Source: Candidatus Stahliibacteriota bacterium (GTDB lineage: Bacteria; Hydrothermota; UBA3072). From it: 34,373 nucleotides of DNA. The translations under genes and the position numbers were made by a program. Below the pieces are notes generated by a model. The model did no database searches and was not told the DNA's origin. It saw only the letters and a list, made by a program, of their open reading frames with translations. Below are positions 301 to 34,373 of this stretch, piece after piece; position 1 is the stretch's first letter, and the number at the start of each line of letters is the position of its first letter. The DNA is taken from NCBI GenBank assembly GCA_030668705.1, contig DAOVFB010000005.1:1-34373 (forward strand), written 5' to 3'.

Positions 301-692
301 GTCGAGAGTCCATCCTTTAGGTATTAGGTGTTTGGTCTTAGGTCTTGGGTCTTAGTTTTATTTTTTTTACCAACTTAACTACTCAACGATTTAACCACTC
401 AACCTATTACTCTTGGTAATCCAGACTTAACGACTCAACTACTCAACTATTTAACTTTTTTTACTCTGTGTAAATCTGTGTCTATTCCTTTGGTGGTGTG
501 TTCTGGGTTTATTGAGTTCATAGGGTTCGTTGGGTTCGTGGAGTTCTATGTTAGGAAGTTGGCGTGAGTTTTTAACGAAAATTAACCGTGAGTTTGCCGT
601 GGCATTTTTAGGTCTTAGGTTTTAGGGGTTAGGATTTAGGGGTTAATCAGTTGATATCTGTGTTAATCTGTGTCTAAAATGGGGTTGTGAGG
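301..692. repeat. Mosaic intergenic repeat block 1 (TTAGG-type, 'actcaact', 'ctgtgtaaatctgtgtc', 'gtgagtttgccgtggcattttta' modules)
   Basis: 301-343 matches 24454-24496 directly (40/43 by eye); 562-692 matches the reverse complement of the 34171-34340 region; internal degenerate repeats such as 'ggtcttaggttttaggggttaggatttagggg'. Confidence 0.85.
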
Positions 693-716
693 TTCCTTCT
701 TCAGTAACAAAGAATA

Positions 717-750
717 TCTTTCTCTGTGTTCTCTGTGTCTCTGTGGCAAA
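717..750. repeat. 'tctctgtgttctctgtgtctctgtggcaaa' degenerate CTCTGTG tandem module
   Basis: Three near-tandem CTCTGTG units; related sequence at 8013-8073 ('tctctgtg...tctctgtagcaaa') and inverted at about 34331-34347 ('gccacagaggcacagatt'). Confidence 0.65.
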
Positions 751-1470: not shown

Positions 1471-4400
1471 TTGATTATTTTATTGTTATCTCTTATGCTA
1501 AATTCGGGAGAAATGGATTCCTTGAAGAAGATTGTTACCCCGCGTCTGGTAAAGAAAAGAGCGGAACTCTTATCTCAGAATCCTTATTATCGAAGATTTT
1601 TAAACCCATATAATGCATACGGAGCTCGCAGGAAACAAAGTGAAGGGACACCGGGGATTCTAAGAGGAAAAGCAGCAGAACCAGAGACAGTATATGTTGC
1701 TGCTATCAGGGTTCAGTTTCTGGAAGATTCAACCCCCGTAACGACTGGAAACGGCAGGATAAATCTCGAGGGCAGTGGACATATCTGTGATACGATAATT
1801 GATGGCTCTGATACGAGTTATGTAAGGAGTCTATATTATGACCCTCCACATGATTTTACCTACTTTAATCGATTAATGGAATATCTTCATAACTACTACT
1901 GGAAGGTTTCATATCATACACAGTGGATTGAATGGAGGGTTCTACCGGATTTAACTGATTCTGTATACACCCTGCCTCATAAGATGACCTATTACGGAGA
2001 CCCATCTAATTATGTTATGGGCCTATTTAAGTTGCTGCGAGACGCAATTGAGGTTGCTGATTACGATGTTGACTTTTCTGGAATTGACGAGGTAATAATC
2101 TTCCACGCAGGTTCTATGTATCAGAGTGACTATTTTTATGATTCTCCTTATGATTTACCTGCGGTATCGGTTCATGGACTTCATCATATATTCAGTTCAT
2201 ATCTCGTAGCGGATGGCGACACGATTGATAGTGGTATTATCTATCCCGAGACCGGTTTCCAGGATGGTATGCCAGCATATCTCCAGGGCGGTCTATGCCA
2301 TGAGTTTGCGCATTCTGAAACTAATGGCCTCCTTGACCTGTATGATGTATCAGGCGAGACAATGGGAATGGGGGGATGGGCACTTATGGGAACCGGTAAC
2401 TGGAATGAATTAGGTCTTGTTCCTCCGAGATTGTGTGCTTATAACAGGATTAGTGCAGGATTTGATGAACCTGTAGTTATAAATAAAAATACTAACTCAG
2501 TTCCAATAAAGTGGGTGGGTAGTATGGATACTCTTACCCCCAGAATTTACAAGGTCCCAATAAATAAGGATGAGTATTTCTTGATTGAGAATAGATGGGT
2601 CTATATTAACCCGGACACTCATCACTATGTCAACCCCTGCACAACCAGTGTTGATTCAAATGGTGCAAGGGTATGGAAGGACAACGTATTGGTCGATGTG
2701 GACGATTATGATTCTTCACTTCCCCCAGCTCTTTATTCCGGAGGCCTTGCAATATGGCATATAGATGAAGAGAAGGTAGCAGAATCAGATACACTTAATG
2801 AACTAAACGCAGGTTTCCCTCATGCCGTTGACCTTGAAGAAGCCGATGGTATACAGGATTTCGAAAAGAACTTCTGGAATGTTTACAATATAGAGGCTAC
2901 TTTCTTTGGCTCGGAGCTTGATGTGTTCAGAGAAGGGGGATGGCTCTCGGAGTTTAGTCGCGAGACCGATCCAAACACAGAGGATAATTCCGGGAATTAT
3001 ACAGGGATTGTTATATCTAATATATCCGAGCCAGACTCAGTTATGTGGTTTGATATCTCTTTCTTAAGTAGTGTTCCTGGTTTTCCTAAAAAGGTTGGGG
3101 AGAGGATGGATGTGATTTCCCCGCAGATTCTGGATTCATCCATCTATATAGGAGATATGTTTGGCGGTGTATATCAAGTGGGTCCCGATAGGACTTTATT
3201 CATGATGGTGGATACGACAGATACTACCTATGCTGATTCCACTTATACAACCCCACTTCTTGCCGATATAACAGGGAATGGTATTCCTGATCTATTTGAT
3301 ATGACAATAAATGGTCGGTTATTCCTCTATGATTTTACCTCTGGTTCTATTATAGATTCATTATCCGTTTTAGATTGTATCTATGGAAATGCGTCGGCAG
3401 TGAACCTTGATGGAGAACCCGGGAAGGAAATTCTCTTTGGAACATCCGGTTCTGAACTCCATGTTCTTCACTGGAATGGAGATTCACTGGAAGAGATGGA
3501 GGGTTTTCCTCTATACGTTGGAGACTGGCTGGTTTCAGTTCCCCTGGTCATTAATAACTCAATATATATTCTCCCGGCGGATGGAAGGCTCTGGAAGGTC
3601 TCTACTGCAGGAGAAGTTATATGGCGGAAGGGAGAAGAAAACCTTTCCTATAGTTTGTCTTCGCCAATAGCAGGGGACATTGATCGTGATGGGATAAAAG
3701 AGATAATATGTTCAGTTGGAAAAAAATCGATATTCTCCATTGATACCTCTGGAATAATTGAGTGGGAAAAGGACCTTCCTGCAAAGACCTATTTCTCCAC
3801 TCCAGCCTTGGGCGATATTACCGGGGATGGTTATCTGGAGATCGTCTTTGCTGACAGTACTAACCTTTATGCAATGAATAGGAATGGATACCTCCTTGAT
3901 CATTTTCCTGTCAAGATAAATCTCTCAGAACAGACTCAATCCTCCATCATCTTATCCGATGTGAGTGGTGATTCCCTTCTGGATATTATCCTGGGATCAC
4001 CTGATGGAGGGGTGCTTGCATATAATGGATGGGGAGAGGCGGTCGGACAATTTCCCGTTACTACGGGTAGAAGGTCTTACTCCACGCCCTTAATTGCAGA
4101 TATAGACAATGACGGTCGCTCGGAACTATTCATCGGGTCCTATGATGGATGGTTATATGGGTGGGAGACTGATGGGTTTTATCGTAATGATGGATGGAAT
4201 CAAATCTATGGGAATAATGACCATCAATCTATTTATCCTGATTCTTTACTTTCCGAAGTAGAAGGAGAAGGAGATTTAACACTGGATGAATTCTACGTTT
4301 ATCCTTCACCTACTAATGGAATACTGCATTTTCGTTTCCGTCTGGGGAGTGCTGCAGAAGAAGTAACCCTAAGAGTGTATTCCCTATCTGGAAGATTGGT

Positions 4401-4548
4401 GATAGAGAGGAAGATTTCGGGATATTTTGGTATTAATGATGAGGAAGTAAACATATCCAGTGAGGCTAATGGAGTTTATATCGCGACCATTGAGGTGGGT
4501 AATAAATTGTTCGATAAAAAGAAATTCGCGGTCTTGAGAGGAGGTTAA
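1471..4548 (+). CDS. M6-family (immune inhibitor A-like) metalloprotease with FG-GAP/VCBS-like repeats and C-terminal T9SS type A-like sorting domain (TTG start)
   Basis: GGLCHEFAHSETNGLLDLYD (HExxH-containing M6 motif) and MGGWALMGTGNWN; repeated D-x-D/N-G-D units (GDIDRDGIKEIICS, GDITGDGYLEIVFAD, ADIDNDGRSELFIGS); C-terminus FYVYPSPTNGILHFRF...LRVYSLSGRLV...ANGVYIATIEVGNKLFDKKKFAVLR fits the Por-secretion tail pattern. Confidence 0.88.
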   Translation: MIILLLSLMLNSGEMDSLKKIVTPRLVKKRAELLSQNPYYRRFLNPYNAYGARRKQSEGTPGILRGKAAEPETVYVAAIRVQFLEDSTPVTTGNGRINLEGSGHICDTIIDGSDTSYVRSLYYDPPHDFTYFNRLMEYLHNYYWKVSYHTQWIEWRVLPDLTDSVYTLPHKMTYYGDPSNYVMGLFKLLRDAIEVADYDVDFSGIDEVIIFHAGSMYQSDYFYDSPYDLPAVSVHGLHHIFSSYLVADGDTIDSGIIYPETGFQDGMPAYLQGGLCHEFAHSETNGLLDLYDVSGETMGMGGWALMGTGNWNELGLVPPRLCAYNRISAGFDEPVVINKNTNSVPIKWVGSMDTLTPRIYKVPINKDEYFLIENRWVYINPDTHHYVNPCTTSVDSNGARVWKDNVLVDVDDYDSSLPPALYSGGLAIWHIDEEKVAESDTLNELNAGFPHAVDLEEADGIQDFEKNFWNVYNIEATFFGSELDVFREGGWLSEFSRETDPNTEDNSGNYTGIVISNISEPDSVMWFDISFLSSVPGFPKKVGERMDVISPQILDSSIYIGDMFGGVYQVGPDRTLFMMVDTTDTTYADSTYTTPLLADITGNGIPDLFDMTINGRLFLYDFTSGSIIDSLSVLDCIYGNASAVNLDGEPGKEILFGTSGSELHVLHWNGDSLEEMEGFPLYVGDWLVSVPLVINNSIYILPADGRLWKVSTAGEVIWRKGEENLSYSLSSPIAGDIDRDGIKEIICSVGKKSIFSIDTSGIIEWEKDLPAKTYFSTPALGDITGDGYLEIVFADSTNLYAMNRNGYLLDHFPVKINLSEQTQSSIILSDVSGDSLLDIILGSPDGGVLAYNGWGEAVGQFPVTTGRRSYSTPLIADIDNDGRSELFIGSYDGWLYGWETDGFYRNDGWNQIYGNNDHQSIYPDSLLSEVEGEGDLTLDEFYVYPSPTNGILHFRFRLGSAAEEVTLRVYSLSGRLVIERKISGYFGINDEEVNISSEANGVYIATIEVGNKLFDKKKFAVLRGG

Positions 4549-7747: not shown

Positions 7748-8085
7748 TTATTAGCCACAGAGTCAGTGTTCAAATGCAAAATGAGAAATGTAAATTGAAA
7801 ATTGCAAAATGTCCCACTTACCACCATTATTTTAGACATAGATTAACACAGATATTAACTTATGAAGGTGAAAAATTAAGGAAATCTATGCACATCAGTG
7901 TGGATCAATGTCGAAAAATGAGGTTTTGGGGGTTCTTCTCTGGGACAAGACGACTGATTTCCTTGGGGGAATAGGTGGTTAAAGATATGGGTCAGAACAA
8001 ACAAAATAAATTTCTCTGTGAACCCTGCTTGCCCCGTAGGGAGGAACTGACCGTACTGGGGTATCTCTGTAGCAAATATAGGAGG
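7748..8085. repeat. Mosaic intergenic repeat block 2
   Basis: 'aaatgcaaaatgagaaatgtaaattgaaaattgcaaaatg' degenerate run; 'agacatagattaacacagatatta' is close to 34257-34281 and inverted relative to 647-676; 'tctctgtg...tctctgtagcaaa' relates to 717-750. Confidence 0.65.
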
Positions 8086-13541: not shown

Positions 13542-14424
13542 CCCGGGTGGAATAGGGATAGAAGTCACATTAAAGGCACTCTCCTTTTCTGACAAAAAGG
13601 CAATTCTTTTCGGCAATAAGAACGCACTTCAATACTATTCTAAAAAGTTGAATCTTCCATTCCCAAAGCAAATAGAAATAATAGATATCACTGGAGAATT
13701 CTCTATGGGTAGGGTCTGTAAGGAGAATGGAGATATTGCTTACCGTTCGATTATAGAGGGGATAGGTGCATGTAAAACGGGGATATGCAGTGGATTGGTT
13801 ACGGCTCCGATTCATAAGAAAGCCTTATCGCTTGCCGGTTATAACTATCCAGGGCATACTGAATTACTTGCAAAAGAATGTAGGACTGATAAGTACGTTA
13901 TGATGATGGTCTCTGATTCGATGAAGGTAATTTTCATTACAACTCATATCCCTATATCAAAAGTTCCCTCTGCTCTCTCAAAAAAACTTATCATAGAGAA
14001 AATCGAGTTAACTTCCAAGGGTCTTAAGTATTACTGGAATATTTCCAATCCAAGATTTGGCGTACTTGGACTAAATCCTCATGCAGGGGATTCTGGTCTT
14101 TTTGGTAGGGAAGAGATAGAGATAGTGGAACCCGCGATAGAGGAACTTAAGAGTAGAGGATATAATATCGAAGGGCCTTTTCCTCCCGATACCTACTGGG
14201 CAATGCAAGAAAAGGATTGTACAGTCGCTCTATACCATGATCAGGGTATGATACCCTTTAAGTTGAAGAGTTTGTGGAGAGGCGTAAATGTTACACTGGG
14301 CATTCCTTTCCCAAGGACCTCTCCTGATCACGGGACGGCTTTTGATATTGCAGGGAAAGGGATGGCTGATCAGGGTAGCATGAAGCAAGCCGTAGAATTA
14401 GCAATATTAATGTCAAATGTATAG
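13519..14424 (+). CDS. pdxA: 4-hydroxythreonine-4-phosphate dehydrogenase
   Basis: MIGITLGDPGGIGIEV, APIHKKAL, GHTELLA, LNPHAGDSGLFGREE, HDQGMIPFKL, TLGIPFPRTSPDHGTAFDIAGKG. Confidence 0.96.
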   Translation: MIGITLGDPGGIGIEVTLKALSFSDKKAILFGNKNALQYYSKKLNLPFPKQIEIIDITGEFSMGRVCKENGDIAYRSIIEGIGACKTGICSGLVTAPIHKKALSLAGYNYPGHTELLAKECRTDKYVMMMVSDSMKVIFITTHIPISKVPSALSKKLIIEKIELTSKGLKYYWNISNPRFGVLGLNPHAGDSGLFGREEIEIVEPAIEELKSRGYNIEGPFPPDTYWAMQEKDCTVALYHDQGMIPFKLKSLWRGVNVTLGIPFPRTSPDHGTAFDIAGKGMADQGSMKQAVELAILMSNV

Positions 14425-17400
14425 CTTGATTATCCTGTTTTTATCATACTCCAATTTCGTAAGCTTTCCGACGGATAATTATTATATTAAGGACCTTTCT
14501 GAATTTCATAATCAGGTTGGAGAGGTTATAGTGGATGACTATTACTACAAGGATCAATACCTATATACAGTTAAATTGAGTGTTTTTGAAGAATGGAGTG
14601 GGGAATTTTTCCTTCGCAATTTCGGAACCTCACTACAAAAGGTCGTCAGTGAGGCACTCCGTCGAAAGGGTAGCGCAGGGGGTGGGATAATTCCTGACAT
14701 TGACCTTTCGATAAAGATGCCACGGGGCCTCAGTTATATAATTGGAGAAGGGGGACATATAGCAGTAGATGGTTCTCAATCAATTGACCTCGATCTCAGC
14801 AGGAATCAGAGTACTTCCCTTAGTGGTCTGCAAGCCTCTGCTTTTCCTCAGATAAAATTAGAGCAGCGTCTACGCGCAAATATACACGGGACAGTGGGAG
14901 AGAAGATCCATGTTAAGATTAATCATGATTCTGAAGCCATGGAACAGGATAATAAGTTAAAGATATGGTATGAGGGCGACGAAGATGATATTGTGCAGAA
15001 GATTGATGTAGGGGACCTCAAGGCACTTGGAGGTGGCAGAAATCAAAGCGTTTTTGGTATTCAAACAATTGGTGCTCTTGGTTCGACTTCCTTTGATCTC
15101 ATAGCAGGAAAACTGGAGAGTAATACATCGAGTAAGACCGAGAGTTATTCATTCTCAAGTCATTCTGATTCGCTCCCAGAGAGAGCATATGTGAGGGATA
15201 AGTACTATTATACTGGTCTATCGGAGTCGGATTCACTTATATCTCTTGTTTTATTCATACAGGAGAATACCTCAATAGGTCATAAGCCTGCACACCTTAC
15301 AGACATCAATGGAAATCCTCTGGATGAAAATGCTGAATTTGTCGAACTTACCTATGGAGATGATTATGAGTTAAGGTATTTACGCCTTTCAAACGGTAGT
15401 CTTTTCCCCTATCTCCATGTCACCAAAACCCATTCTAACAAAAGACTCGGTTTATGGTATGTTTACTACGATGGTAGCCTCGGTAGGATTGACACGCTCG
15501 GTTCCCTCGAGGGCGATACCCTCATCCTTGCTCAACTCTGTTCACAAAATCCTACTCAAGGAGATCCTAGCTGGGATCTAATGATGAAAAATATATATTC
15601 TTTTGGGACAGAAAACCCTACTTCTGTGGACGTAACAATATATAAAATGATTGCTGGAGAAGATGCTATAGAGATAGAGCCAGTGAGTGGTAAAGAGTAT
15701 ATTGAGCTACTTGGTCTTGATGTAAGTCCCGTTGATGGTAAAATAGATATAGAACAGGTTCTCTGGAGCGATGGCTGTATAATTTTTCCTTATGATAAGC
15801 CGTTCGTAAACCCTGCCCTGGGTGCAGACACTGTTCCTATAATATATAATAAACGAACCCTTATAAGCGGTGAGGGAGAGAACTACAGCATAGTAATTAC
15901 CGCTGCTTCTTCAAAGGGAGAATTTTTCATTGGATACGGAGAACTGGTCGATTCATCAGAGGTTATAGTTGTTGATAGTGATACACTTAGAAGAGGCGTT
16001 GATTATAGGATAGATTACAACACCGGTAGAGTTGTATTTACCGAGAATGTAAATCTTAGTCCCGACTCAAAGATAAGTTATACTTATGATACCGAGCCTC
16101 TTTTTTCTTTTACTTCAAGATATATAGCAAAAGCGAACATTAAAGCCCAACCCTTTACGAATAGCGAACTCAATCTTGATTTGGCCTTCCGTTCGAGTTC
16201 TAACCCTGAACCCCATCCCAGGGTAGGAATGGAACCCTCTCATATTACACGAGGTGAAGTGAATTTTTCTACAAAAAGAGGGCTTGGGGTATTGGATAAT
16301 ATCACGCGGAGGTTGCCCTTTTTTGACCCTGAAAGCGAATCAAAGATAAGGGTCAAGGGTTCCTATGGATTTTCGTTACCGAATCCTGCAACTAATGGAA
16401 AGAGTTATCTGGATGATATGGAATCAGTAAAGCTCTCAAGGGAATTGGAGATATCTGCAGGTTTATGGAACTACTGCAGCCAGCCTGATAGTTCGATTCA
16501 AATTGACCGGGTAGGGAAGATCGACTGGTTTAACTCTCGTATACCAAAAACTTATATATATCCCGAGCTTCCTGCCACCCAGCGGAATCAATATGTTGGT
16601 ACCATGGTATTGTATTTCCAGCCCGATACCTCCCTACCAAATGTATATAATAGCTGGGCAGGCATAATGAAAGCATTTTCTGCTTATGAGGATTTTTCCC
16701 AGAAGAAATATTTAGAGGTATGGGTTAAGGGAGATAGTGGAGAAATTATTCTGGAACTCGGGTCAAAGATGAAGGAAGATATACCAAGATGGGGAAGGAG
16801 TGCTTCTGGTTCCGATTCATTGCTTGAGCCCAATGGTTCCATAGATACCGAGGATAGGAATGGTAATTTTGAGTTGGAACTGGGAGAGGATACAGGCCTC
16901 GATGGCGTGGCATTTGACGATGATAAATGGACGTACATAGTGGATTCACTCGATGATGGAAGGGACGATTATCCGGTTCAGCTGAAGACCTTTCAGGATT
17001 CATTGAAACTACACAGGAAAGAGGGCAACAGGCGTCTTGATTCCGAGGATATCAACAGAGACCATATGCTTGAAGATAAGGATGAATACTTCAGGTACAG
17101 GATTGATTTAGAATCCCCTGAATTGGTCGTGAATTATGGCTCAGATGGGTGGAAGATGTATCGAATTCCTCTCACTGATTCTACTTATTATGAAAAAATC
17201 GGGGAGCCCAGTTTTGAGAATATATTATACACCCGGATCTGGACTACTAAAGTCGATAAAGCTACCAGGGTTGCCTTAGCAGGGATAGCCATTGTTGGTA
17301 ACAGATGGGTGGATAAAGGCGTTCGGAGTGATCCCTCTCATTTTTCGAATCCACCTGGCGGGAGATTCCTTATCACATACCGGAATAGTTTTGAAGATGA

Positions 17401-19810
17401 GGATTATGTTCCACCTGTGGAAGAGGAACGAGAGATATACGGAGGTTATTCAAGGGAACAGTCACTTGTGTTCAAGGTAGATTCACTGGAAAATAAATAT
17501 ACCTGTCTTGCCGAGTCTTATCTCGAACTCCCCAGGAGCAGTTCTGGTAAGGGGTACGATCTAAGATTATATAAATCCCTTCTTTTTTACTCCCAGGCAA
17601 CGAGTAATACAAGTGACTCTGTTATGATATTCCTGCGTCTGCTTACTGATTCCTCCAATTATTACCAGTACAGCTGCTATCTCTATATGGACGGTTGGGA
17701 TACCCTTGATGTTGACTTCCAGAACTTTTATAGTCTAAAATTACAAAATGATACATTAAAAGGCAGGTATTCCTTAAAGGGTAATCCAACACTAAAGAAT
17801 ATTGCATATATACAGTTGGGTGTTGTGAATCCCAACCAGGATGATTTTACAGGGGAGGTCTATTTTGATGATATTATTTTAATGGGGGCAAATACCGATA
17901 TTGGAAGCAATTTGAGTCTATCTGTATCATCAAATATTGGAGATATTATCCCAGACCTTTCCTACACTATTCACAGGAAATCGGCAAGTTATAAAATCAG
18001 TTTAGATGCCTTACGAAATATAGGAGACAAGGAGACAATTTCCCATAATTTTAATGTAAAATCTAATGCGGGAAAGTTTATAGGCAATTTTGTTAAAATG
18101 CCTCTCACTTTTAAGTACGATAGATCAAGTGAGATTCCTTTATATAGAAGGAATTCAGATATACTCTTGCCACAGGAAGAAAGGGGAAACGAGTCAAGTC
18201 TAAGCGAGTTTCAGAGGGTGTCGGGGAACATTGCGAGGCCCTCATCTCCTTCTGATAATTGGTTGTTAAGATATACAGTTAATAATATCCGTATCAATGG
18301 GTCCTTTTCTATTAGTAAGTCCTTTAAACCTGAACAGAAAGCTGATACCGTCGTTAATAGAACGGCTGGATTCAAGTATAATTTGCCTCTACCTTCAATT
18401 TCCCTACCGTTCCTTTCCGGTGGTTCAACTTCTCTTATTCCGAATAATCTTCATTTTAATGCCGATTATAAGAATAATATAAGTAACAGGTATACCTATT
18501 CGAAAGATGATGCTGTCTTACAAAAGACCGCTGTAAAACCCGTAGAGGAAGTAACACCATCCGGAGGTTTTACATATAAGCCCATTAGATGGATTAATTT
18601 AAATTACAGTATTTCAGGGAAGCAGAACTTACTTTATGGTGGTCGATTAGGAAAAAATGTATCCTTAAGGGAAGGAATAACTGCAAACCATAATTCAGAT
18701 CAGTTTAATTTAAATAATATAAATTTAACATATTCAAATAGCTACACAGAGAATCATGGTATTGATTATTCGAAAACACTTGGCGATACCCTGGATGTAA
18801 GAAGTGTAAGTCAGAATAGGACTATCACTATAAGCGATAATTTAAAAGTAAACCAGATACTCAAAAAACTCCCTGTAATCAGAGGGTTCGCCGACAATAT
18901 TAATTCTATTCGCCTTACCTCCTCTTTTAGCAGGAATAGCTCCTTTGCCTACCTGAATGCCTTTCCTGACTATAAGTTTCGCTACGGGATAGAGCCTGAA
19001 CCTGGGAGTGAATTTATCGCTTTGAGTAGTCCTTTGGATGGGGGGATGAGGACTAAGCAGTATAACCTTTCTTCCGGGTTTAATATAGGAAGGGTTAAGA
19101 TAGATGTAAGTGGACGCTTCACGGAAACAAGACCGGATGAAGTGAAGTTAAGAAATTCAGTATCAGCAAATAAGACAGCAACGCTCAGTTTCCCCAATGT
19201 AAATATTCAAATCTCAAATATTGATGACTATATTCCACCATTTAAAGGTCTAATAAAGAGTTCCAGATTCAATGTATCAATAAATATGGATTCGACTACC
19301 ACCAGGAGTCTCGTAGGGCAGGAGTACTCAGAAGGTAGTGCAACGCTTCAATTATCCCCAACTCTTGATCTTAAGTTTAAAAACGGTTTTAATATAAACA
19401 TTAAATCGGGCTATACGAAAAGAGATAATTACACCAATAGATCTTACAGGATTCATTCCCATGCCAATACTTATGATATAAAAGTAATCGGGGATTATTC
19501 CTTTAAACCTACATCAAACGGGTTCTCACTGCCACTTTTTGGTAGATTACATTGGAAAAAACCCATAAACTTAAAGGCAACATTCACAATGCTGAATAAC
19601 AAGGAAATATCCACTAATCTTACTACAGGTAAGGGGGAAATTAGACAGGATAGTAGAAATATTACCTTTAGCCTTCAAGGTAATTACGATTTTTCCAATA
19701 TGGTCTCTGGTGGTTTATCAGTTAATTATCGTAACTATCTCAACAGAAAAATTGCAAATGATGCCACAACAAGTTATGGGGCAAGTTTTAATGTTCTTTT
19801 CAAATTCTAA
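14417..19810 (+). CDS. sprA: Giant outer-membrane protein of the SprA/Sov family (T9SS translocon / gliding-motility SprA-like)
   Basis: SprA N-terminal signature: LEQRLRANIHGTVGEKIHVKINHDSEAMEQDNKLKIWYEGDEDDIVQKIDVGDLKALGGGRNQSVFGIQTIGALGSTSFDLIAGKLES; repeated beta-rich segments to the C-terminal aromatic SYGASFNVLFKF (outer-membrane beta-barrel end). Confidence 0.85.
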   Translation: MYSLIILFLSYSNFVSFPTDNYYIKDLSEFHNQVGEVIVDDYYYKDQYLYTVKLSVFEEWSGEFFLRNFGTSLQKVVSEALRRKGSAGGGIIPDIDLSIKMPRGLSYIIGEGGHIAVDGSQSIDLDLSRNQSTSLSGLQASAFPQIKLEQRLRANIHGTVGEKIHVKINHDSEAMEQDNKLKIWYEGDEDDIVQKIDVGDLKALGGGRNQSVFGIQTIGALGSTSFDLIAGKLESNTSSKTESYSFSSHSDSLPERAYVRDKYYYTGLSESDSLISLVLFIQENTSIGHKPAHLTDINGNPLDENAEFVELTYGDDYELRYLRLSNGSLFPYLHVTKTHSNKRLGLWYVYYDGSLGRIDTLGSLEGDTLILAQLCSQNPTQGDPSWDLMMKNIYSFGTENPTSVDVTIYKMIAGEDAIEIEPVSGKEYIELLGLDVSPVDGKIDIEQVLWSDGCIIFPYDKPFVNPALGADTVPIIYNKRTLISGEGENYSIVITAASSKGEFFIGYGELVDSSEVIVVDSDTLRRGVDYRIDYNTGRVVFTENVNLSPDSKISYTYDTEPLFSFTSRYIAKANIKAQPFTNSELNLDLAFRSSSNPEPHPRVGMEPSHITRGEVNFSTKRGLGVLDNITRRLPFFDPESESKIRVKGSYGFSLPNPATNGKSYLDDMESVKLSRELEISAGLWNYCSQPDSSIQIDRVGKIDWFNSRIPKTYIYPELPATQRNQYVGTMVLYFQPDTSLPNVYNSWAGIMKAFSAYEDFSQKKYLEVWVKGDSGEIILELGSKMKEDIPRWGRSASGSDSLLEPNGSIDTEDRNGNFELELGEDTGLDGVAFDDDKWTYIVDSLDDGRDDYPVQLKTFQDSLKLHRKEGNRRLDSEDINRDHMLEDKDEYFRYRIDLESPELVVNYGSDGWKMYRIPLTDSTYYEKIGEPSFENILYTRIWTTKVDKATRVALAGIAIVGNRWVDKGVRSDPSHFSNPPGGRFLITYRNSFEDEDYVPPVEEEREIYGGYSREQSLVFKVDSLENKYTCLAESYLELPRSSSGKGYDLRLYKSLLFYSQATSNTSDSVMIFLRLLTDSSNYYQYSCYLYMDGWDTLDVDFQNFYSLKLQNDTLKGRYSLKGNPTLKNIAYIQLGVVNPNQDDFTGEVYFDDIILMGANTDIGSNLSLSVSSNIGDIIPDLSYTIHRKSASYKISLDALRNIGDKETISHNFNVKSNAGKFIGNFVKMPLTFKYDRSSEIPLYRRNSDILLPQEERGNESSLSEFQRVSGNIARPSSPSDNWLLRYTVNNIRINGSFSISKSFKPEQKADTVVNRTAGFKYNLPLPSISLPFLSGGSTSLIPNNLHFNADYKNNISNRYTYSKDDAVLQKTAVKPVEEVTPSGGFTYKPIRWINLNYSISGKQNLLYGGRLGKNVSLREGITANHNSDQFNLNNINLTYSNSYTENHGIDYSKTLGDTLDVRSVSQNRTITISDNLKVNQILKKLPVIRGFADNINSIRLTSSFSRNSSFAYLNAFPDYKFRYGIEPEPGSEFIALSSPLDGGMRTKQYNLSSGFNIGRVKIDVSGRFTETRPDEVKLRNSVSANKTATLSFPNVNIQISNIDDYIPPFKGLIKSSRFNVSINMDSTTTRSLVGQEYSEGSATLQLSPTLDLKFKNGFNINIKSGYTKRDNYTNRSYRIHSHANTYDIKVIGDYSFKPTSNGFSLPLFGRLHWKKPINLKATFTMLNNKEISTNLTTGKGEIRQDSRNITFSLQGNYDFSNMVSGGLSVNYRNYLNRKIANDATTSYGASFNVLFKF

Positions 19811-24285: not shown

Positions 24286-24301
24286 GCAGAGCAAGCTCTG
24301 C
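24286..24301. repeat. Perfect short palindrome GCAGAGC-AA-GCTCTGC
   Basis: 7-nt arms with a 2-nt centre, read directly; followed by 'tactccaga'. Confidence 0.8.
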
Positions 24302-24393
24302 TACTCCAGACTAGCAGCAAAATAGCTATAAGTATATAAGTTGGTCGGTTGGTATGTTAGGACTATCGTGGTAAGTGATATGTGATATGTGGT

Positions 24394-24448
24394 ATGTGGG
24401 AACGGGCTTCTGCCCGTGATCATCGAGGCTGGAAAGCCTCTCCCACAT
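24394..24448. repeat. REP-like palindromic element predicted to form a perfect three-way junction
   Basis: ATGTGGGA [ACGGGC-TTCT-GCCCGT] gatcatc [GAGGCT-GGAA-AGCCTC] TCCCACAT: 8-bp outer stem and two 6-bp hairpins, all perfectly paired. Confidence 0.85.
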
Positions 24449-24453
24449 GATTA

Positions 24454-24720
24454 GTCGAGCGCCCACCCTTTAGGTATTAGGTGTTTGGTCTTAGGTTTAT
24501 TGTTTCTAATGTTGAATTATGAATTATGAATTTTGAATGAAAATCAGTTCAAATCAGTGAAAATCAGTGTCTAAAATTTAGTTCTGAGTTCAGTGTTCTT
24601 AGTTTATATCAATCAGTTCAAATCTGTGTCCATCTGCGGTTTCATTTTCCTGGTGGTGTGTGGTTTTTATCTGCGTCCGTCTGCGGTTTCTTCCGTCTTC
24701 TGTCCTCTACCTATAGACCC
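24454..24720. repeat. Mosaic intergenic repeat block 3
   Basis: 24454-24496 is a direct copy of 301-343; 24621-24690 matches the reverse complement of 34091-34162; 'aatcagttcaaatcagtgaaaatcagtgtctaaaat' relates to 650-680. Confidence 0.85.
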
Positions 24721-34090: not shown

Positions 34091-34373
34091 TGAAACCGCA
34101 GATAAAAACACACCCCACCAAGAAGATGAAACCGCAGATGAACGCAGATAGACGCAGATAGATACTAATTAACCCCTAAATCCTAAAACCCAACACCTAA
34201 AAATGCCACGGCAAACTCACGGTTAACTCTTGATAAAAACTCACAACCCCCCAAAAATAGACACTGATTAACACAGATATCAGCTGATTAACCCCTAAAT
34301 CCTAACTCCTAAAACCTAAGACCTAAAAATGCCACAGAGGCACAGATTAATGTAGTTAAATAGTCGAGTAGTT
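34091..34373. repeat. Mosaic intergenic repeat block 4 (inverted orientation relative to blocks 1 and 3; continues past window)
   Basis: 'gaaaccgcagataaaaacacaccccaccaagaagatgaaaccgcagatgaacgcagatag' is the reverse complement of block-3 modules; 34171-34340 is the reverse complement of block-1 modules; internal duplication 34169-34215 vs 34288-34337. Confidence 0.88.

Follow-up and report, generated by a model that had tools for sequence, protein, structure and literature searches.

One-polarity mosaic arrays of worn short-unit repeats between the genes of a WOR-3 genome

The intergenic spacers of a WOR-3 (Caldifarciminota) genome carry mosaic arrays of worn short-unit repeats that run in one polarity and rearrange, a description which we regard as secure. 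A repeat found at both ends of one contig, which the initial annotation read as a large module shared there in inverted orientation, is one piece of this genome-wide intergenic vocabulary and no two-copy inverted module.

The repeat at both window ends

The window (the whole stretch of DNA analysed, 34,373 nt) is a complete contig, C172, bases 1–34373, of a fragmented genome (1.89 Mb, 174 contigs, 92.8% complete). Its ends do share an inverted core, with 599–676 matching the reverse complement of 34258–34335 at 96% over 78 nt, and the adjoining piece said to be shared is shared too (564–638 versus 34170–34244, 87% over 75 nt). No ORF had been thought to explain the repeat, and none of at least 100 aa lies over either site. 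The repeat does not occur only twice, however: AACCGTGAGTTTGCCGTGGC, the 20-nt heart of the reported element and its F module, has 83 copies in the genome (at most 2 mismatches), while a reversed-pattern control at the same tolerance gave 0 matches in the genome. A search with 562–760 returned 120 genome-wide matches, many more than chance would give. These 83–120 copies rule out a two-copy repeat or segmental duplication, and the core did not prove to be part of a longer insertion sequence.

The initial annotation also held that the modules are conserved while their order is permuted. Conservation stands, and among other genomic copies the modules are truly re-ordered, but the permutation does not apply to the window pair. 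F lies between a D-C unit and the D that comes next, which makes both sites collinear inside a tandem D-C-K-F-D run, and the apparent permutation was a misreading. Read in array direction, the left-hand copy runs K-like, F, D, D, C; the right-hand copy runs D (34326–34294), C (34289–34258), K-like (34250–34234), F (34226–34205) and D (34200–34182), then R and K. The remark that simple transposon copies behave differently holds good, the modules being multi-copy, intergenic and shuffled. Terminal inverted repeats and fixed outer ends are absent, with both module order and array ends varying.

Three arrays lie in the window. Array 1 (324–747, forward strand), located by module scan, reads D2-D-A-A-E-K-F-D-D-C-B and ends 58 bp before a tRNA-Arg gene. 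On that strand it includes two A modules with an 8-nt unit (370–455), an E module with a 9-nt unit (505–534), a K-like linker (GTTGGCGTGAGTTTTTA, 558–574), the F module (582–603), a D module with the 7-nt unit TTAGGNN (608–640), a C module with a 10-nt unit (645–676) and a B module with 8–9-nt units (722–747), a word that also occurs in phage contigs. Array 2 (24346–24694, forward strand), Y-V-D2-N-C-T-R-K-R, lies between a pilM-like gene and ftcD. Array 3 (34103–34326, reverse strand) is the right-hand copy and reads D-D-C-K-F-D-R-K in its own direction, with its F module at 34205–34226. A lone worn C module occupies the spacer after 7747 (7833–7864, reverse strand).

Contigs tend to break in repeats of this kind, and contig ends have more arrays than expected (17 of the 80 arrays lie no more than 300 bp from an end, versus 5.2% expected, p = 7e-7, the sampled contigs having mostly been chosen for carrying matches). 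Since the window is a whole contig, the presence of the repeat at both of its ends is an assembly effect.

The window also encodes an SprA/Sov-type outer-membrane translocon of the type IX secretion system (14417–19810) and a Por_Secre_tail protein (1471–4548). Other intergenic palindromes occur as well, e.g., at C34:3050–3850 and window 24286–24310, among them GTAGGGGCAATTCATGAATTGCCCCTAC (35 copies in 437 kb) and GCAGAGCAAGCTCTGCTACTCC, the latter with stem sequences that vary.

Vocabulary, polarity and location

The vocabulary was studied in a 437-kb sample (~23% of the genome) picked largely for carrying matches. Eighteen words were set by eye from over-represented intergenic 14-mers; one of them, P, is a palindrome and was left aside. 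The arrays are built from at least 17 modules of ~17–35 nt, and the majority of these are worn tandem repeats whose units measure 7–11 nt. The period is 7 for D, D2, d3, V, N, S and Q, 7/14 for T, 8 for A and Y, 9 for E and J, 10 for C and R, and 11 for F; B has periods of 17 and 9 (8+9), and the linker K has no clear period. Tandem Repeats Finder, run on the window, gave periods that match those of the words. The array strand is composed of T 0.41, G 0.24, A 0.21 and C 0.14.

Differences between the units within a word are kept among its copies, which implies that words are copied whole. Copies of D also vary in length by one whole 7-nt unit. None of these words is described in the open literature searched, whose scope leaves out most subscription journals.

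Neighbouring words lie on the same strand in 442 of 452 pairs and on opposite strands in 10. The binomial p of 2e-116 for this assumes independent pairs, which they are not. A single polarity holds in 75 of the 80 arrays, regardless of the strand of the flanking genes. Up to 17 words of differing units are chained in one array, and transitions between words are limited: K is followed mainly by F, R and B; F by D, K and E; D by C, D and A; C by K, d3 and T; and T by C. The expectation that copies would be intergenic was borne out, as long ORFs make up 79% of the sample yet hold only 13 of the 635 word copies.

Polarity dictated by gene strand or by contig GC skew was rejected, as neither showed an association. 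With gene direction corrected for, array polarity had a weak association with GC skew (rho 0.40, p = 0.019; 35 contigs, one of four tests), which may hint at replication direction.

Arrays in related genomes

In the species-representative collection, the genome is alone in its genus, and its non-chance exact F matches are to candidate division WOR-3 (Caldifarciminota) isolate RS_13_48 (G003), a member of the same family. F matches in viruses, an alphaproteobacterium and an archaeon were taken as chance, being in coding-dense, unrelated DNA that has no other array words. F has 83 copies in our genome, 3 in G003 and 0 in four other family members, and B has 61, with 86 in G003, 29 in G004 and 13 in G005. 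Across the phylum, B is present in 17 of 147 genomes.

The orthologous spacer after a NUDIX gene allows a direct comparison of two genera. It reads K-C-D-F-B-A-E-V-Y-J in our genome and K-F-B-D-C-T-C-D-D-F-A-D-D2-B-K-Q-S-V-Y-J in G003, so the array ends and polarity are kept and the interior is rearranged, the sole exception in polarity being one S word in G003. Here the flanking coding DNA is 74–76% identical, while the best common array tracts reach ~90%; constraint or transfer may contribute to this difference. G003 is a separate lineage, its flanking NUDIX protein having 74% identity to the one in our genome, and mis-binning of its contigs is thereby ruled out. Neighbouring words in this second genus lie on the same strand in 24 cases versus opposite strands in 2.

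At the ftcD and uvrA spacers, the array content is unrelated between genera (UvrA is 75–82% identical), and G002 has almost no spacer at these comparison sites.

Words in phage contigs

Exact matches to array words also occur in IMG/VR contigs: 22 stretches for the B pattern, 13 for R and 10 for D, several of these stretches being near-duplicates or parts of one contig. The GC of the contigs that carry them ranges from 0.31 to 0.68, and some have portal and major-head genes. Neighbouring B words in these contigs form inverted pairs in 14 of 14 cases, with one topology. R gives 8 inverted pairs with the topology of the B pairs and 22 neighbours on the same strand (in at least part of these cases overlapping matches inside one word), and D, with 1 inverted and 5 same-strand neighbours, is not notably paired. 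The modules of our own genome are not inverted pairs. At one gene, L185, L186 and L188 have a B-type pair that L190 lacks.

Three further observations concern these phages. In two that are ~80% identical (L191 and L192), the short-unit repeats differ between matching intergenic gaps. R words form several hairpin-like inverted pairs between head genes in L166 (824–899 and 7140–7244), L167 and L171. A phage protein (L130/L185:920–2107) has extra in-frame stretches, KTFTAETAEKESKS and KTSTAEIAENAETE, that its relatives at 53–54% identity do not have, and these are apparently translated repeat words.

The words in phages may reflect horizontal spread or convergence, the latter being readily imagined for a unit as simple as that of D. 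It is conceivable, though we would not count on it, that distant bacteria and their phages share a circulating vocabulary of degenerate short-unit words (B, R and perhaps D). It would often take the form of inverted-pair mini-elements in phages and of one-polarity arrays in the WOR-3 lineage, and a so far undescribed mechanism would copy whole words with their unit differences preserved.

How the arrays may arise

The best-supported account, and to us a probable one by a little, is tract copying via short homologies together with unit slippage, with no role for the adjacent gene. The arrays would be neutral or selfish DNA that spreads between intergenic sites. A replicating or repairing strand would switch template, or recombine, at short words common to the modules (e.g., GTGGCAT, GGTGGTGTGTG and GTTTTTAATCAG), copying or deleting tracts of 30–260 nt with polarity retained. 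Slippage by whole units would alter module length, and exchange among ~100 copies would keep the vocabulary uniform.

Several features of the arrays are consistent with such copying. Tracts in common with the reported region end preferentially at word boundaries, with 65 of the 198 ends in a single 5-nt interval versus a random mean of 13.5 and a random maximum of 20. The length of tracts common to arrays runs from 29 nt (5th percentile) to 263 nt (maximum). Of the array indels, 18.5% have exact direct repeats of 8 nt or more on both sides, versus 3.5% in same-array controls; these indels are differences between paralogous arrays and not observed events, and no event was seen at strain level. 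Most inferred junctions have only 3–6 nt of common sequence, and the gaps between paralogous arrays have short common words and no clean single-unit insertions. Against tract copying, the words were set by eye, the sampled contigs were mostly chosen for their matches and the junctions are short; copying within a genome also leaves unexplained the B, R and D words of unrelated phages and the ~90% identity of tracts common to genera whose flanking coding DNA is only 74–76% identical.

An unlikely but substantial alternative takes the individual modules to be miniature mobile elements that owe their movement to a Y1 transposase (RAYT or IS200/IS605-like), whose sequence-directed single-strand insertion would give constant polarity. 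The genome has four Y1 transposase genes, one of which, on C75, scores above the curated RAYT cut-off. Module ends are defined, the B and R inverted pairs of the phage contigs look REPIN-like in having one topology, and the B-type pair that only some of the phages have at the same gene fits a moving element. However, the modules have no hairpins such as these enzymes recognise (z about 0.5; 0 covarying pairs) and in our genome they do not form inverted pairs. Furthermore, the C75 gene (L111:1276–1812) has palindromes of the GGAGTAGC/GCTACTCC type on both sides (1183–1275 and 1848–1905), which resemble GTAG-tagged repeats (PMC3733652), and array words were not found in its flanks. A REP/RAYT system is present in this WOR-3 genome and belongs to other, palindromic repeats, so the genome's own RAYT was rejected as the mover of the modules. 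A reverse-transcriptase origin was also rejected, as an RVT_1 match is absent from the 92.8%-complete genome.

Import of words is less likely still. Inverted-pair mini-elements moving between phages and hosts would supply B, R and D, which would then be absorbed into local arrays, and the phage contigs that carry these words, with their wide GC range and, in some cases, portal and head genes, favour this. However, F is confined to the WOR-3 family of our genome, and most of the phylum seldom has B. Simple units may also have converged, above all that of D, and any transfer could have run in either direction.

We think it very improbable that the arrays are functional, e.g., as a small RNA, terminator or regulatory spacer. 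Strong conservation of the words, their polarity and, in F, a weak stem followed by T are what such a role could offer, but the stem is no better than in shuffled sequences, the polarity is unrelated to gene strand, and array content differs or is absent at orthologous genes. The small RNA implied by the initial annotation found no support: on both strands the predicted fold of the core is like that of shuffled sequences (z = 0.53 and 0.23), there are 0 covarying pairs across 16 copies, and Rfam matched tRNAs only. Compensatory changes, proposed as a check, gave a two-sided change in 0 of 13 predicted pairs. A structured RNA was rejected on the negative folding, covariation and Rfam results.

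Least credible of all is short-read misassembly of repeats as the source of the mosaics, which the 174 contigs and the enrichment at contig ends might suggest, but most arrays lie inside contigs, between genes and in one polarity, and an orthologous gene pair of another genus has the same words, joined in the same ways and with the same polarity (the 24 versus 2 neighbours above).

If tract copying is true, much of the spacer DNA in this lineage is recombining text with direction and grammar, a record of the copying and joining of short sequences. With phages that differ widely in GC carrying the same words, the origin and possible movement of worn short-unit bacterial repeats become directly testable. 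There is also a practical side: assemblies break at such arrays, and a gene call that reads through one can acquire spurious residues.

Comparison with known systems

Miniature inverted-repeat transposable elements (MITEs) and insertion sequences are likewise multi-copy non-coding DNA, but the WOR-3 arrays have no terminal inverted repeats and vary in order. The very small mobile repeats of cyanobacteria of Elhai et al. 2008 are reportedly very short, dispersed and associated with tandem short-unit repeats. We know of no one-polarity grammar among them. The WOR-3 words resemble them in being very short and dispersed in a short-unit tandem context, a comparison drawn without detail.

The heptameric repeats of Xanthomonas and Nostoc are intergenic and genome-wide, consist mostly of 7-nt units, are often degenerate and are rare in genes; their arrays use one G-rich unit and are mostly retained between the same genes in two Xanthomonas (PMC4692102). 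Cyanobacterial heptanucleotide repeats were reported by Mazel et al. 1990, as cited in the same paper (PMC4692102). The WOR-3 units are likewise tandem, intergenic and ~7 nt (or 8–11 nt) long, but their arrays chain many words with 7–11-nt units in one polarity, and the content of an array mostly differs from genus to genus.

REPs are palindromic and alternate in orientation within BIMEs (PMC3116915, PMC3733652). Like REP/BIME/REPIN sequences, the WOR-3 repeats form high-copy intergenic mosaics, and the inverted B and R pairs of phages look like REPINs; unlike them, the WOR-3 modules are non-palindromic and in a single orientation, and different repeats flank the RAYT gene. The nearest known kinds to the WOR-3 arrays are short-unit intergenic repeats, whose single-unit, position-stable form they do not share, and REP/BIME/REPIN, whose palindromic, alternating features they do not have.
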